NCBI GenBank assembly: GCA_021740905.1
Contig: JAIOYV010000021.1
Location: forward strand, 1-64,000
Direction of reading: 5' to 3'
Length of the DNA: 64,000 nucleotides
Source of the DNA: Bacteroidales bacterium
GTDB taxonomy: Bacteria; Bacteroidota; Bacteroidia; Bacteroidales; M50B96
The number at the start of each line of letters is the position of its first letter. Position 1 is the first letter of the stretch. The notes under the pieces were generated by a model that was not told the origin of the DNA, made no database searches, and was given only the letters and a program-made list of their open reading frames with translations. This document shows, one piece after another, positions 1-6,498 of this stretch. Both the position numbers and the translations under genes were made by a program.

Positions 1-659
1 CGTTCTATTGGTGGCTAGCAAACTCGAACATTTGTACCTCCAGTCAATATTATTTGGAACGGTGCTACGTTCAGCCCTTCAGTGATAGTCTCTTATGTCG
101 GGATAGCCGCCCACTTATACGCTTATAAGCTGCCAATCTATCCATGCTGTTAATACTACATACCACCTACTATGGCCTCTGCTGGTTGCTCATAGATATT
201 TATTTTTTGCATTCGCGATTTCCGCTTCGCTTCAATTCTTGGTGCATAGGAATACCAAACCTAATCCAAGACCTCCCCCGTGCCTGTCCCGTACCGAAGG
301 TCGGGATAAGAGCTTTTTCCTTCTGTCAATCCCTGCTGGATCTACTACTTTGGCCATCCGCATACCTATGGGTTTTGGACGTCGGCATGATGTGCTACCT
401 TATCCGGCCTCGTAGCCTCATATCCAGTTTCTGTTCGACAGTACCAACCTTTGTAGTCCTGCTTCCTTCAGTCCTTGGGTCGCCCCAAGCAACCTTGCAG
501 CTTACTAATGGTTCGAGTCGTTACTCCCGCCCATGAGAGACTTTCACTCTCTGGAAAAAAAAATGAACACCTGTTGCTTGCCCTTGAAAATAAATTTGTA
601 TTTTTCGATTTTTTCAAGAGCTTACAACGGGTGTGCACTGCTGCTCATGCAGGGCACAC
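1..659 (-). ncRNA. Group II intron 5' portion (domains I-III), truncated by window start; probable group IIC-attC type
   Basis: The reverse complement starts GTGTGCCCTGCATGAGCAGCAGTGCACACC (GUGYG 5' consensus). It has the domain I motif CCAGAGAGTGAAAGTCTCTCATG (about 526-554). It is near-identical in long blocks to 4100-4925, which lies upstream of an RT N-terminus. Confidence 0.75.
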
Positions 660-785
660 ATATCAGCTATAGCAAATGCGGGCTGACTGTTTAAAATGAA
701 GATATTGCAAACAAACAACATTCGGTCTGGCGGACAGGAATTCGGTTTCAAAATCCCGCACTTGCCATAGCCAGTGCCGTTAGCG
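660..785 (+). repeat. attC-like site A (integron cassette recombination site)
   Basis: Imperfect palindrome: CAGCTATAGCAAATGCGGG pairs with CCCGCACTTGCCATAGCCAGTG. The right core GTTAGCGTTC (779-788) is the exact reverse complement of GAACGCTAAC at the left of site B. Confidence 0.65.
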
Positions 786-794
786 TTCATTAAG

Positions 795-1661
795 ATGAAA
801 AACAGACACTTACATATAATAATTGGATTTTTGTTATTCGGATTTATTTCCTGTATTGGGATTAAAACGATTAAACAGACAACCTATATTGGAAATTTTA
901 GAGAAAGCAATTATGGCTTTTTTGAATCTTTCCGTCACACAAATGACCAAGATTATTATTATAATTTGCCATTTGAGTTAAAATTCGGTGGGATTAGACT
1001 ATATCCATTTGATTCGATAGGAAAGAAGGATTATTCTTGGTTGAGAAATCCTACTAACTTGAAAATAGCCTTTAATTCAGTTAAACTAATCGGACTTGAT
1101 AAGTTTGTATCATTTAGACAATACAACAAAAAAAATTCAGATTGGTGCTGTGATACACAATGGGAAAATAAATCACTAAACGACATCGTAAAAGGATTTT
1201 TGCTTTCCGATACTATTTCTAATGGAAAGGATTATTATTCCAAATTTTGGCAGAGACGAAGAATAGAAAAAAATCTAAAGGAAGCTTGGCAGATTTTTCA
1301 ACAGATAGATGATTTTTATAATAGTAAAAAGTCTATGGTTACAGAATCCACCTTTGATACTACTCTTTATCAATTACTTGATTATGACATTAAACTGATT
1401 AATTCAGATTCTCTTTCCTATCCAAAGATAACTCTTAGGTATTTTGATTATCTAAAAAAGATAGAATTGGATTATTCAGCATATAAATTGATTTTCCACA
1501 ATTCGAGATTGAATTTTTCTAGAACATTTAGAGATAGTCTTTTATTGACAATGAAATATGATACTTTAGACGTTGAAGATTGGGGAAAAATGAATGATAA
1601 TATTGATGGATGGATAACTGGGGAGATTTATCCTGACCCAAATAGAAATTATGGACCTTAA
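795..1661 (+). CDS. Hypothetical exported/lipoprotein-like protein, cassette cargo
   Basis: ORF 774-1661. The ATG at 795 gives an N-terminal hydrophobic segment (MKNRHLHIIIGFLLFGFISCIG). It lies between attC-like sites A and B. Confidence 0.7.
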   Translation: MKNRHLHIIIGFLLFGFISCIGIKTIKQTTYIGNFRESNYGFFESFRHTNDQDYYYNLPFELKFGGIRLYPFDSIGKKDYSWLRNPTNLKIAFNSVKLIGLDKFVSFRQYNKKNSDWCCDTQWENKSLNDIVKGFLLSDTISNGKDYYSKFWQRRRIEKNLKEAWQIFQQIDDFYNSKKSMVTESTFDTTLYQLLDYDIKLINSDSLSYPKITLRYFDYLKKIELDYSAYKLIFHNSRLNFSRTFRDSLLLTMKYDTLDVEDWGKMNDNIDGWITGEIYPDPNRNYGP

Positions 1662-1674
1662 TATAAAAATTAAC

Positions 1675-1808
1675 GAACGCTAACAAATGGTAGAGTTCAT
1701 GCGGGTTTTAGGGGTTTTCTAGCGTTTGTGACTCGTAAACAAAGCAGGTAGTAAAATGATAAGAAACAGCTTCGAAATCCCGCACGAAACCCTACCATAA
1801 ACCGTTGT
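1675..1808 (+). repeat. attC-like site B
   Basis: GAACGCTAACAAATGGTAG...GCGGGTTT...AAATCCCGC...CTACCATAAACCGTTGT palindrome. Strongly similar along its length to site C (5757-5900). Confidence 0.75.
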
Positions 1809-2610
1809 TGCGACACGAGGTCGCATAAGTGATTGTTTTACTGAGAGATTAGTTCTTTGATAAAACCTGTTGTTCTCCCAACAGTACCCTACCGGGACAG
1901 CTGATGTATGGCTTGCCCCGTGAAATAAAAGCTTTGCTATTTAACGGGGTGAACCATTATTGGTTGTACCGACCGAAGGGAGTTCACGAACACCTAAAAA
2001 ATTAATATTCTGTGAGTAAGCTCCCGGGAAAATGTACCAATCGCTTGGATTTTGCATCCTCATAGCGGGGCAAGAAACCGCAAGGTGGACGGTCTTCGGG
2101 GTCTCGATACCGATTAAGGGCACGGGTTAGTGGGTATGGCTAAAATATTTGAACATTCCGAAACTGTCGTCAGAAAGTAAGGGGCGCAAAAGAGAATGAA
2201 CCGCCCTGCATCCTTCGAAGGTTGGATGTGCTGGCAAGTTACGAGCGTTTAACGCAGCTCTTACGGAGACGTAGCCCAGCCGGCAGACAGGATGAGCCTA
2301 ACCCCACACAATTTGTCACTTATGTGGAATCCCGAAATAATCGGGACAGGCTGTGGAAGCCCGGCGCTATCTCTCGATTTTCAATCGGGATAAAACCGTA
2401 ACCGCAAGGCTTCGGGAACAAAGCGAAGCGATCTCATGAACGCCTTAGAATAAACATTATGTGAATAATGTAGGCAAATTACTACATTTGTGAAACATGG
2501 AACGAAAACAAACAGCCGGGTTTCCCCTCACCGGGTCAGCCTTAAAAGTGCCTGAGCCGTATGCCGGGAAACTGGCACGTACGGTTCTTAGGGGGCGTAA
2601 GCTACCCGGT
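1807..2610 (+). ncRNA. ORF-less (RT-deleted) group II intron; ends approximate to about 5 nt
   Basis: 5' end TTGCGACACGAGGTCGCATAAGTG. Domain V GAGCCGTATGCCGGGAAACTGGCACGTACGGTTC at about 2552-2586, followed by a domain VI-like stem GGGGGCGTAAGCTACCC. Only about 100 nt separate the ATGAACGCC ORF-start remnant from domain V. Confidence 0.85.
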
Positions 2611-2676
2611 GGTGGTATTTTTACGAAGACATCATCCTAAATGAATTCATAATGTTGTAAATTTGAAAGAAAATAT

Positions 2677-3741
2677 ATGATATTACTTTTATTCTATTTA
2701 TTTCTAGCTCTATTTGTTTCATTCCTCTGTTCTATAATGGAATCAGTACTTCTTTCTACACCTCAATCCTTCCTGATTGTTAAGCATGAAAAAGGGAATG
2801 TTTGGGCAAAAGCATTTATTGATTTAAAAAACAATATTGATAAGCCATTATCTGCAATTTTATCATTAAATACAGTAGCGCATACAGTTGGTGCAGCTGG
2901 AGTTGGAGCACAAGCAGTTAAAATATTTGGAGAAGCATCTTTTGGAATTATATCAGCTATTTTAACAATTTTAATTTTGGTAATCACAGAAATAATCCCA
3001 AAAACAATTGGAGCCAGATATTGGAGAAATCTGGCAATGATTACTTCTCGAATTATACAAGTAATGATAATTATAACCTATCCATTAGTTGTTATGTCAG
3101 CGGTAATTACGAAACTTGTTTCAAAAAACAGGCAAGAGCAAACTACCAGTCGAGAAGAAATAGCAGCATTAGCAAATATAGGAGCAGATGAAGGCGTTTT
3201 TTCAGAAAAAGAACATAAAATAATTCAAAATTTACTTAAACTCAAAAATGTAAGTGTAACAAAAATAATGACTCCAAGAGTTGTTGTAGCAGTTGCTTCC
3301 GAAAAACTATTATTAGAAGAATTCTTGAAAAACAAAGACTATTTAAAATTCTCACGAATACCAGTATATTCAGAAAATGATGAAAACATAACAGGATATG
3401 TAATTAGACAGACCGTTTTTGAGAAACTTGCGGAAGACCAGCATGAATTAAAACTGAAAGATATTAAAAGGGATATTGTTATAGTTCCAAATTCTATCGT
3501 ATTATTTACTTTATGGGAAAAACTATTAGAAAAAAAAGAGCATATTGCCTTAATCGTCGATGAATATGGCGGCTTGGATGGAATTGTAACAATGGAAGAT
3601 ATTATTGAGACATTGCTTGGACTTGAAATTATTGATGAAAAAGATACTATAACTGACATGCAAAAATATGCAAGAGATAGATGGAAAGAAAGACAAGCTA
3701 AATACAATATATTGGACAAATTAAATAACCAGGACGAATAA
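2677..3741 (+). CDS. CNNM/HlyC-CorC family transmembrane protein (DUF21 + CBS pair)
   Basis: N-terminal TM DUF21-like region (FLALFVSFLCSIMESVLLSTPQS...ITEIIPKTIGARY) and CBS region (KIMTPRVVVAVAS...HIALIVDEYGGLDGIVTMEDIIETLLGLEI). Confidence 0.9.
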   Translation: MILLLFYLFLALFVSFLCSIMESVLLSTPQSFLIVKHEKGNVWAKAFIDLKNNIDKPLSAILSLNTVAHTVGAAGVGAQAVKIFGEASFGIISAILTILILVITEIIPKTIGARYWRNLAMITSRIIQVMIIITYPLVVMSAVITKLVSKNRQEQTTSREEIAALANIGADEGVFSEKEHKIIQNLLKLKNVSVTKIMTPRVVVAVASEKLLLEEFLKNKDYLKFSRIPVYSENDENITGYVIRQTVFEKLAEDQHELKLKDIKRDIVIVPNSIVLFTLWEKLLEKKEHIALIVDEYGGLDGIVTMEDIIETLLGLEIIDEKDTITDMQKYARDRWKERQAKYNILDKLNNQDE

Positions 3742-3746
3742 AAAAC

Positions 3747-3893
3747 ACCACCTAACAATATAGGATTTAAGGCTCTGTTGAGCCAAAAAAAATGAGACAC
3801 GAAGGTTGAAGTACCGACATGTCTCTTTAGGTTTATTGCCCGGTCCAGTCTCCCAAAGCTCAATTGAGTTTTAAATCCTATATTGTTAGTGCC
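3747..3893 (+). repeat. attC-like site D
   Basis: ACCTAAC left core and GTTAG right core. The exact 17-bp arms AACAATATAGGATTTAA (3754-3770) and TTAAATCCTATATTGTT (3871-3887) flank about 100 nt. Confidence 0.8.
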
Positions 3894-4099
3894 TCAGGGT
3901 TATCGTCGAGGTATCGTTTCAACTCTTTTACGTTCATCTTGTCTATCCCGGCCGCCCCTTTGTTCCTGATCAACTTGCGGCTTGCAACGGTCAGGTTGCC
4001 TGCCCGCAGGAAGGTTTCAATTAAATCTATTTGTTGTAATTTGGTTAATCCTCGTTCCTGTTGTATTTTCCGGTGGCGTCCGCCAACTGGCCGATCCAT
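3878..4099 (-). pseudogene. N-terminal fragment of group II intron reverse transcriptase/maturase
   Basis: MDRPVGGRHRKIQQERGLTKLQQIDLIETFLRAGNLTVASRKLIRNKGAAGIDKMNVKELKRYLDDNPEALTI; typical maturase N-terminus (RNKGAAGIDKM). The frame ends inside attC-like site D. Confidence 0.85.
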
Positions 4100-4925
4100 T
4101 CGGAATTAACAACGTTTTAAAGTTCAGTCCTTCTGATACATCGCTTCTTTGTGGGACAAGCCCGGCTAACACAGTTCGCTCCCCGAAAGTGACCGGGGCA
4201 GGCTGTGCGCCGCTGCCTATCAGTTTTGTTCACCTTTCATACCTCAAAGTACCATACTATGGCCTCTGCTGAGTTCTTGGTGTATAGAAATAGCTTTATT
4301 GAGCTTTCCGAAGCACCAAATCTAATCCAAGACCTTCCCCGTGCCTGTCCCGTACCAAAGGTCGGGATAAGAGCTTTTTACTCATAGATTTTTTTTTTAA
4401 GGTATTCGTGAGATCGGCTTCGCCATAGTTACTCACAGGCTTAACTTTTTTGGTGTTCGTGAGACCGGGTTCGCCTAAGTCCCTTCGGTCAATCGCTGCT
4501 GGATCTACTACTTTGGTCATCCGCATACCTATGGGTTTTGGACGTCGGTATGATCCCGAAGATCGGGACAGGTAGTGTTACCTCATCCGGCCTCCTAGCC
4601 TCATATCCAGTTCCTGTACAGCCTGTCCCGCACCAAAGGTCGGGATCAGTACCAACCTTTGTAGTCCTGCTTTGTTACTCCCGTTGGTCGTGAGATCGCT
4701 TTGCTAAGTTCCTTCAGTCCTTGGGGTCACCCCAAGCAACTACGTTTTTTCATTCGGTAAAAGTGCAGCTTGCTAATGCTTCAAGGCGTTACCCCTGCGC
4801 ATAAGGGACTTTCACCCTCTGGAAAAAAAGGAACACCTGTTGCTTACCCTTGAAAATAAATTTGTATTTTTCGAATTTATTCAGAGCTTTCAACGGGTGT
4901 GCACTGCTGCTCATGCAGGGCACAC
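3888..4925 (-). ncRNA. 3'-truncated group II intron (domains I-III plus RT start), probable group IIC-attC type
   Basis: The reverse complement begins GTGTGCCCTGCATGAGCAGCAGTGCACACC. It has the domain I motif CCAGAGGGTGAAAGTCCCTTATGC (4799-4822) and leads into the RT start at 4099. It is a second copy of the 1-659 element. Confidence 0.8.
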
Positions 4926-5050
4926 ACAATGTATAAAAATAATAGCCGAAATAGTGGTAAATTCATGGCTTGTAGCCCGCTTCAACTTTCTTGTAACTTT
5001 ACAGGGAGGTGTTACGCAGTCGGCTACTATTCTTATACCCATCGTTGTAA
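4926..5050 (+). repeat. attC-like site E
   Basis: ACAATGTATAAAAATAATAGCCGA pairs with TCGGCTACTATTCTTATACCCATCGTTGT. The right core GTTGTAAGTAATGCTC matches the reverse complement of the site C left end (AAGCACTACTTACAAC). Confidence 0.75.
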
Positions 5051-5329: not shown

Positions 5330-5350
5330 AGATTGATAAAAAGGGTAATT

Positions 5351-5749
5351 ATGAAAATAATAAAGAAAAAAATCGATATAGTAGTTGAAAAAACCGACAC
5401 CGGATTTTCAGCTTACAGTAATGATTTTCCAATTTTTACAACTGGCCGGACTATCCCCGAACTGATTGATAATGCTTTTGAGGCAGCAAATCTATATTTC
5501 GAAGATGAGAATGTTGAGATACAACATGAAAATTTAAAATTCGAGATTGATTTTAAACAGTTCTTTCAGTATTATAAAGTGCTAAACTCAAAATTCTTGG
5601 CTGATAAGATTGGTATGAACCCGACATTATTATCTCAATATGTACAAGGACATAAGAAACCATCAGATAAACAGACTGAAAAAATACTATTTGGCATTCA
5701 TCAGATTGGACAAGAATTGTCTGAGATTAACTTGATTTATAGACATTGA
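5351..5749 (+). CDS. hicB: HicB-like antitoxin with C-terminal XRE-type HTH
   Basis: HicB-like N-terminus (VEKTDTGFSAYSNDFPIFTTGRTIPELIDNAFEAANLY) and HTH (FLADKIGMNPTLLSQYVQGHKKPSDKQ). Adjacent to hicA. Confidence 0.8.
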   Translation: MKIIKKKIDIVVEKTDTGFSAYSNDFPIFTTGRTIPELIDNAFEAANLYFEDENVEIQHENLKFEIDFKQFFQYYKVLNSKFLADKIGMNPTLLSQYVQGHKKPSDKQTEKILFGIHQIGQELSEINLIYRH

Positions 5750-5756
5750 TTGAAAT

Positions 5757-5900
5757 AAGCACTACTTACAACAAATGGTAGAGTTCATGAGGGTTTCAGA
5801 GGTTTTTGGGCGTTTGTGGCTCGTAAAAAAGGCAGGTAGTAAACTGATTATAAACAGCTTCGAAATCCCGCACGACACCTTACCATAAACCGTTGTGGTG
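5757..5900 (+). repeat. attC-like site C
   Basis: CTTACAACAAATGGTAG...AAATCCCGC...TTACCATAAACCGTTGT. Closely similar to site B. Confidence 0.75.
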
Positions 5901-5961: not shown

Positions 5962-6498
5962 ATGAACAAATCGGAAATTCAAATATTTACGACCAAATAT
6001 GGAAAGACTGAAATTGAAGTCCAGCTAGACAATGAAACAGTTTGGTTAAATCAATACCAACTTGAATCTTTGTTTGAAACGGACAGGACTTCTATTAACC
6101 GACATATTTCGAATATTTATAAAACAGAAGAACTTGAGGGAAATTCAACTTGTGCAAAAATTGCACAAGTTCAAAAAGAAGGCGAACGTGAAATAAAACG
6201 AAACATAAAATATTACAACCTTGATTTAATAATTGCAGTCGGTTACCGTGTCAATTCAAAACGGTGAACTGAATTCAGAGTAAGGGCAAACAAAGTTTTA
6301 AAGGATTTTTTAATAAGAGGATTTTCATTAAATGAAAAACGGTTATCCAAACAGAATAATCCATTAAATCGTGTCGATTGTAATATTGTTACTAATGGGT
6401 TGTTGGATAAAGATGAAAATGTCTGTATCGCTGGTAGATATGAAATTTTATATCAGTATGATGGAGAAGATTTAAAAGACTTTACCCAACAACAATGA
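5962..6498 (+). pseudogene. RhuM-family (virulence RhuM) protein interrupted by in-frame TGA
   Basis: MNKSEIQIFTTKYGKTEIEVQLDNETVWLNQYQLESLFETDRTSINRHISNI...YYNLDLIIAVGYRVNSKR*TEFRVRANKVLKDFLIRGFSLNEKRL. The stop is at 6265-6267 where RhuM proteins usually have Gly, and the same frame stays open to 6498. Confidence 0.8.

Follow-up and report, generated by a model that had tools for sequence, protein, structure and literature searches.

A review of bacterial group II introns credits class C alone with using anything other than a long homing site (PMC4424553), and until now one complete case of a IIB intron beside an attC site has been described (PMC7923331). That intron, UHB.I2, is an RT-bearing IIB1/CL1 intron from the Tanatar-5 soda lake metagenome (LFIK01005957; Sonbol & Siam 2021; PMC7923331). 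Here, we describe an ORF-less, RT-deleted group II intron next to an attC site in a Bacteroidales genome, and we consider it probable that it comes from a IIB/CL1 lineage whose target for retrohoming is the top strand of integron attC sites.

The window, which is the whole 64,000-nt stretch of DNA that was analysed, forms the start of contig C56 of a 6.54-Mb assembly of 160 contigs whose SprB and Por secretion-tail proteins, like its relatives, point to Bacteroidota, and the first 6 kb of the window are a cassette array. The unassigned gene of the cassette upstream of the intron (774-1661) is followed by a plus-strand attC (1678-1807), with R'' CGCTAAC at about 1678-1684 and an R' core GTTG that is split after 1807. 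A preliminary description had called this element attC-like, and we found it to be a real attC: its stem arms ATGGTAGAGTT/ATGGTAGGGTT gave p = 0.01 against shuffles, its bottom-strand fold gave z = -2.4, and a second copy at 5737-5896, 82% identical over 160 nt, is present without the intron. The same description had placed the intron exactly at the cassette junction; the junction of attC and cassette was correct, but the actual insertion point lies 3 nt past the attC crossover (G^TTG|intron), inside the cassette and within the R' core. The downstream cassette carries a gene for a CNNM/CBS membrane protein (2677-3741, plus strand; Pfam CNNM 4e-32, CBS 6e-10), with which the intron is co-oriented, as had been proposed, and it ends in its own plus-strand attC (3750-3891; 32-nt arms 88% complementary, fold z -6.2). 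Further along, a gene for a 138-aa protein (5333-5749) is followed by an attC at about 5758-5896. No integron integrase scored above the curated cut-off in the genome, and the array is, as far as the assembly shows, an attC cluster without a recognised integrase.

Two partial IIC introns lie in the array on the minus strand. The 5' part of one occupies 1-659 (read 659 to 1; RF02001, 100.9 bits), and its 3' end is found on contig C46, of which positions 1-36 are the reverse complement of window 1-36 and positions 84-163 match D5. The other runs from about 4925 to 3893 (RF02001, 41.6 bits, and sequence reading) and is truncated within the RT N-terminus. We also observed that IIC and IIB/CL1 introns co-occurred in the same arrays at L063, at L054 and at window 1-5000, in opposite orientation in the window and L063. 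Small hairpin inserts of the type GCCTGTCCCG...CGGGATAAG and similar were present at window 282-310, 4343-4371, 4621-4649 and about 2335-2355, and such inserts recurred in loops of both intron classes, even in D5 of relatives (L090, L091). Additionally, window 5962-6267 encodes an N-terminal fragment, cut at 101 aa, that is related to RhuM and to PDC-S05/PDC-S23 (candidate phage-defence families).

The intron extends from 1808 to 2610 on the plus strand (803 nt, 5'-UUGCG...CCCGGU-3') and looks complete. Rfam Intron_gpII (RF00029) matched D5-D6 at 2552-2610 with 58.5 bits (gathering score 40), and group-II-D1D4-7 (RF02012) matched 1866-2121 with 40.3 bits (gathering score 34). Domain V, GAGCCGTATGCCGGGAAACTGGCACGTACGGTTC (2554-2587, plus strand), has the AGC triad, a GAAA tetraloop and the two-base bulge according to Rfam and the fold, and it is followed by a short domain VI (2591-2607, plus strand; fold and covariance match) with a bulged A at 2604 as the candidate branch point. 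The ends were fixed by alignment of the window copy with 11 relatives from a genome-wide pattern search (n = 12) and by canonical relatives with GUGCG..GAY ends. All 12 aligned copies opened with TTGCGAC, where the canonical relatives of Rhizobium, Haliscomenobacter, Shewanella, E. coli, Salmonella and Aliarcobacter open with GTGCGAC; the first intron base is therefore T1808. At the 3' end, T2610 closes ..CUACCCGGU ahead of the 3' exon GGTGGTATTTTT, and the cassette starts that follow CUACCCGGU in the relatives were mutually unrelated. A start at T1809, with T1808 as exon, was rejected because UUGYG aligns with the canonical GUGCG and the EBS1/IBS1 registers agree. The earlier coordinates of 1801-2660 contained the intron but began 7 nt too early, in the 5' exon, and ran 50 nt into the next cassette; the identification of a top-strand, ORF-less group II intron was upheld by the D1 and D5/D6 matches and by an RT reduced to 27 codons.

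The RF02012 ribozyme is shared with introns of enterobacteria, Shewanella and Haliscomenobacter. The RT of the relatives found its best solved match in the T.el4h IIB/CL1 maturase (E 1e-142, residues 16-475), whereas LtrA and the IIC RTs gave 1e-38 to 1e-29 and all other classes 1e-38 or weaker. In the RT tree, the nine RT-bearing attC copies formed one clade (100/99 support) apart from six canonical CL1 relatives. Profile searches with the relatives' RT gave matches to the RT, the N-terminal and the maturase domain and none to an endonuclease domain. On this evidence the window intron is assigned to a IIB/CL1 clade, its class being read from the relatives' RT and the shared ribozyme family.

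As for the target, the 5' exon ended in CGTTR, the attC R' core, in all 14 readable copies, which came from 12 genomes including that of the window, with two copies each in JC017 (Marinilabiliaceae) and AUK143. The site read CGTTA|T in 13 of the 14 and CGTTG|T only in the window copy. Since the pattern used for the search sat some 50-60 nt into the intron, the CGTTR exon had not been selected for. The 13 upstream and 10 downstream flanks showed no mutual similarity, which argues for separate insertions. An attC-type upstream arm, defined as R'' of the form YAAC plus an L stem with shuffles as control, was recognisable in about 8 of 13 flanks (the window, L051, L053, L055, L056, L057, L059 and L061), with a combined p of about 6e-6 over 12 tested loci. 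Individually, L051 and L057 gave p 0.12 each, the arms were not significant in L049, L054, L060, L062 and L064, and nothing attC-like was seen upstream in L062; a strict arm scan at a high threshold returned zero, so these results come from later scans. In L054, the 3' end of another intron lies directly upstream, leaving ATTTAACGTTA. Restoration of GTTRRRY upon excision was discarded as proof of the site, being true for only 3 of 8 evaluable copies. An empty-site allele of the CNNM cassette was not found, as matches elsewhere covered only the coding region; viral contigs held no copy of the intron, and plasmids and phages held no copy at a similar target site, with the conserved D5/D6 giving the only matches.

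The exon bases CGTTG at 1803-1807 (plus strand) correspond to IBS1, and the matching EBS1, UAACG at 2250-2254 (plus strand), lies in the hairpin loop GUUUAACGCA (window 2247-2256). This loop is invariant among the attC copies, and UAACG pairs with CGTTR, the last pair being U.G in the window copy. In three relatives with other targets, from Truepera, Shewanella and Rhizobium, the homologous loops CUAGCC, GUCCCA and CUGACU are complementary at 6 of 6 positions to their own 5' exons GGCTAG, TGGGAC and AGTCAG, and this co-variation across lineages fixes the register of the splice site as well. An initial candidate for EBS1, AUAGCG within CAUAGCGGGGC at about 2062-2068, was abandoned because it co-varies with its own 5' stem strand and is thus a D1 helix. 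The six bases upstream, where IBS2 would lie, and the first base of the 3' exon, the IBS3 position, vary among near-identical introns, which indicates that neither an IBS2 nor an IBS3 of fixed sequence is used. With only a five-base IBS1, a match would be expected roughly once in 500 nt, and a further signal must therefore guide the intron to attC; the attC stem is the obvious candidate, as in IIC introns.

The usual ends of group II introns, 5'-GUGYG...AY-3', are typical but not strictly defining, and published exceptions exist. They are replaced by UUGCG...GGU throughout the attC clade, where base 1 is U and the penultimate base is G; the canonical relatives have G and A wherever both ends could be read. 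The two positions co-vary in the sequences compared, among which few independent changes were sampled, and the U1..G pair is read as lineage variation and not as loss. During the second step of splicing, the first and the penultimate nucleotide are known to contact each other (PMC3669008), so a paired change would be expected of a working intron. The Truepera relative, which has a different target, also carries U1 and a penultimate G; the pair is therefore not tied to attC.

Intact relatives measure 2235-2328 nt and contain an open RT of about 510-530 aa; copies in Marinilabiliaceae JC017 and HGW-Bacteroidetes-21 are among the RT-bearing ones. In the window copy the RT is absent save for a C-terminal vestige, RQITTFVKHGTKTNSRVSPHRVSLKSA (2472-2555, plus strand), recognised by comparison of its translation with intact C-termini; it consists of 27 codons in frame to a stop that overlaps D5, the same arrangement as in intact copies. 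A sister copy in genome G017 lacks the RT tail and keeps the first codons (MNEDENSSCAP, then a stop), and these different remnants indicate independent ORF losses. The deletion of the RT had been stated correctly, but the nearby introns proposed as sources of a trans-acting maturase are partial copies of a different class (IIC, RF02001). No cognate or CL1 RT was found in the window's assembly, and no matching RT in that of G017. The same query recovered the RT in G102 and G120 as positive controls. The only RVT_1 match of the genome is a 400-aa protein (G000:C141:34129-35331; L048 1130-2332, minus strand), which, judged by eye, reads like the RT of a diversity-generating retroelement. Without a gene for an RT or maturase of its own, the window copy is best read as an immobile derivative that is not autonomously mobile. 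We also noted that the C-terminal RT codons ITTF/NTTF (window 2472-2500 and relatives) give, on the cassette strand, TAnnTTTG, which is the -7 promoter motif of Bacteroidota; this may be chance.

The ribozyme of the window copy is apparently intact, as D5, the bulged A of D6 and EBS1 are all kept. Its Rfam D1 score of 40.3 falls within the range of 39.8-64.3 of the RT-bearing and sister copies. It deviates at 15 of 238 otherwise invariant D1-D3 columns, compared with 0-11 in most others, 35 in L051 (RT-bearing, frameshifted) and 39 in L049 (truncated); this number, higher than in most RT-bearing copies, makes mild decay possible. We judge the chances that the window copy is competent for splicing to be nearly even.

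Shorter traces of the same intron were observed in many cassettes of one genus, which start with a degenerate D5 and a D6 ending in CCCGGT, with no D1 nearby (L044, L084, L093, L094 and L099-L104, in genomes G013, G130 and G227). These heads look as if they were kept as cassette leaders; a use as alternative 3' splice sites is unlikely given the degenerate D5 and the lack of a D1 near them. At L084, L092, L100 and also L039, the 3' ends of a minus-strand IIC intron and a plus-strand intron of the window type face outward with the middle deleted. Such junctions, which made up 3 of about 17 remnant junctions whose upstream sequence was long enough, would fit a single attC that took insertions from both sides and later disappeared.

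We infer the following route. An RT-bearing relative would supply the intron RNP, whose EBS1 would pair, on the top strand, with the R' core at the 3' base of the attC stem. Reverse splicing at CGTTR would then proceed with no fixed IBS2 or IBS3, the folded attC context taking the place of IBS2. As the RT lacks a recognised endonuclease domain, the DNA copy would be made at the replication fork. The intron would become the 5' head of the cassette that follows, in an intergenic position that leaves every gene unbroken. After arrival, an internal deletion would have removed the RT and left D1-D3, EBS1, D5 and D6, and the window copy may still splice, joining CCGTTG^GGTGG.

A different history would have the intron as cassette cargo: it would have entered a cassette head long ago and been shuffled by integrase, so that the constant CGTTR would reflect the crossover G^TTR and not intron targeting. 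Because the intron begins 3 nt within the cassette, an integrase cutting at G^TT would indeed carry it along with the gene that follows and exchange the upstream attC, and 3' remnants of this intron head many cassettes. Travel by cassette recombination should then yield recurring downstream flanks, but the ten available share no similarity; moreover, the intron's own EBS1 is complementary to CGTTR while homologous loops suit other exons elsewhere, and the genome lacks an integrase above the cut-off. We therefore regard shuffled cargo as unlikely. Far less likely still is that the intron is an IIC-attC intron in an unusual orientation that uses a right-arm TTGT, the target put forward in the preliminary description. 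IIC introns do flank it in the array, and a top-strand IIC insertion into attC has been reported for Enterobacter cloacae, as cited in PMC7923331. However, its D1 matches RF02012 and not RF02001, the RT of its clade is CL1-like, and the fourth T of TTGT (1808) is the first intron base, whereas 13 of 14 sites read CGTTA|T and EBS1 pairs with CGTTR, so that both class and target contradict this explanation.

Retrohoming into top-strand attC sites is compatible with a further possibility, to which we give somewhat less than an even chance: that the copy no longer splices and is a fossil, kept because it is harmless between genes or serves as a leader or promoter of the CNNM gene. A fossil is favoured by the missing cognate RT, by the expanded D1 loops and by the 15 columns at which the copy departs from an otherwise invariant state; bacterial ORF-less introns are also rare, and in almost every case the genome contains a related RT (PMC4424553). 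On the other side, D5, the D6 bulged A, EBS1, U1 and the penultimate G are all retained, and there is an RT-bearing relative whose D1 score is no better.

Comparison with known systems places the locus as follows. We know of no attC targeting by T.el4h, the Thermosynechococcus group IIB/CL1 intron (PDB 6me0) whose maturase is the closest solved one to the RT of the clade. C.te.I1 from Clostridium tetani is, like the window copy, ORF-less and has no related RT in its genome (PMC4424553), but it self-splices in vitro, has several 3' splice sites and occupies an unrelated target; after C.te.I1, the window intron is a candidate for the second such intron in bacteria, ORF-less and with no cognate maturase in its genome. 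UHB.I2, compared from its published description, agrees with the window clade in its IIB/CL1 class, its UUGCG..GU ends, its position immediately after attC, its co-orientation with the cassettes, its endonuclease-less RT and the absence of the usual EBS3, and the window intron itself shows these ends, this orientation and this position. UHB.I2 differs in that it keeps its RT and is a single case in which the authors saw no exon conservation, whereas here the RT is deleted and many copies show a fixed CGTTR. Beyond UHB.I2, the present analysis adds the fixed target, the EBS1 fit, the co-variation at the boundaries, a clade that is spread within Bacteroidota, RT loss on more than one occasion, and the mirror symmetry with IIC-attC introns.

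Like the window lineage, IIC-attC introns (S.ma.I2 type) insert at attC stems in cassette arrays with a short IBS1 and no IBS2. In contrast, they enter the bottom strand at R'' (TTGT/T), antisense to the cassettes, and the window lineage enters the top strand at R' (CGTTR) in the sense direction; the window intron has neither the IIC ribozyme and class C RT nor the bottom-strand TTGT/T site. The contrast in orientation drawn in the preliminary description thus holds against the minus-strand IIC introns of the array, but between introns of different ribozyme and RT class and not within one lineage. Each type inserts just 3' of the attC stem on its own strand. We tentatively suggest, as an idea that may well not hold, that Bacteroidota IIB/CL1 introns are a second, independently evolved attC-specific lineage, a mirror of IIC-attC, which recognises the top-strand attC stem plus CGTTR, has changed U1..G together and can persist as splicing-competent, maturase-free cassette heads, so that cassettes would acquire a built-in ribozyme leader. 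The clade offers a natural test of the contact between first and penultimate bases and a compact setting in which to ask if DNA structure can stand in for IBS2. Its fixed attC target means that recognition of a folded recombination site may have evolved two times, once for each strand.
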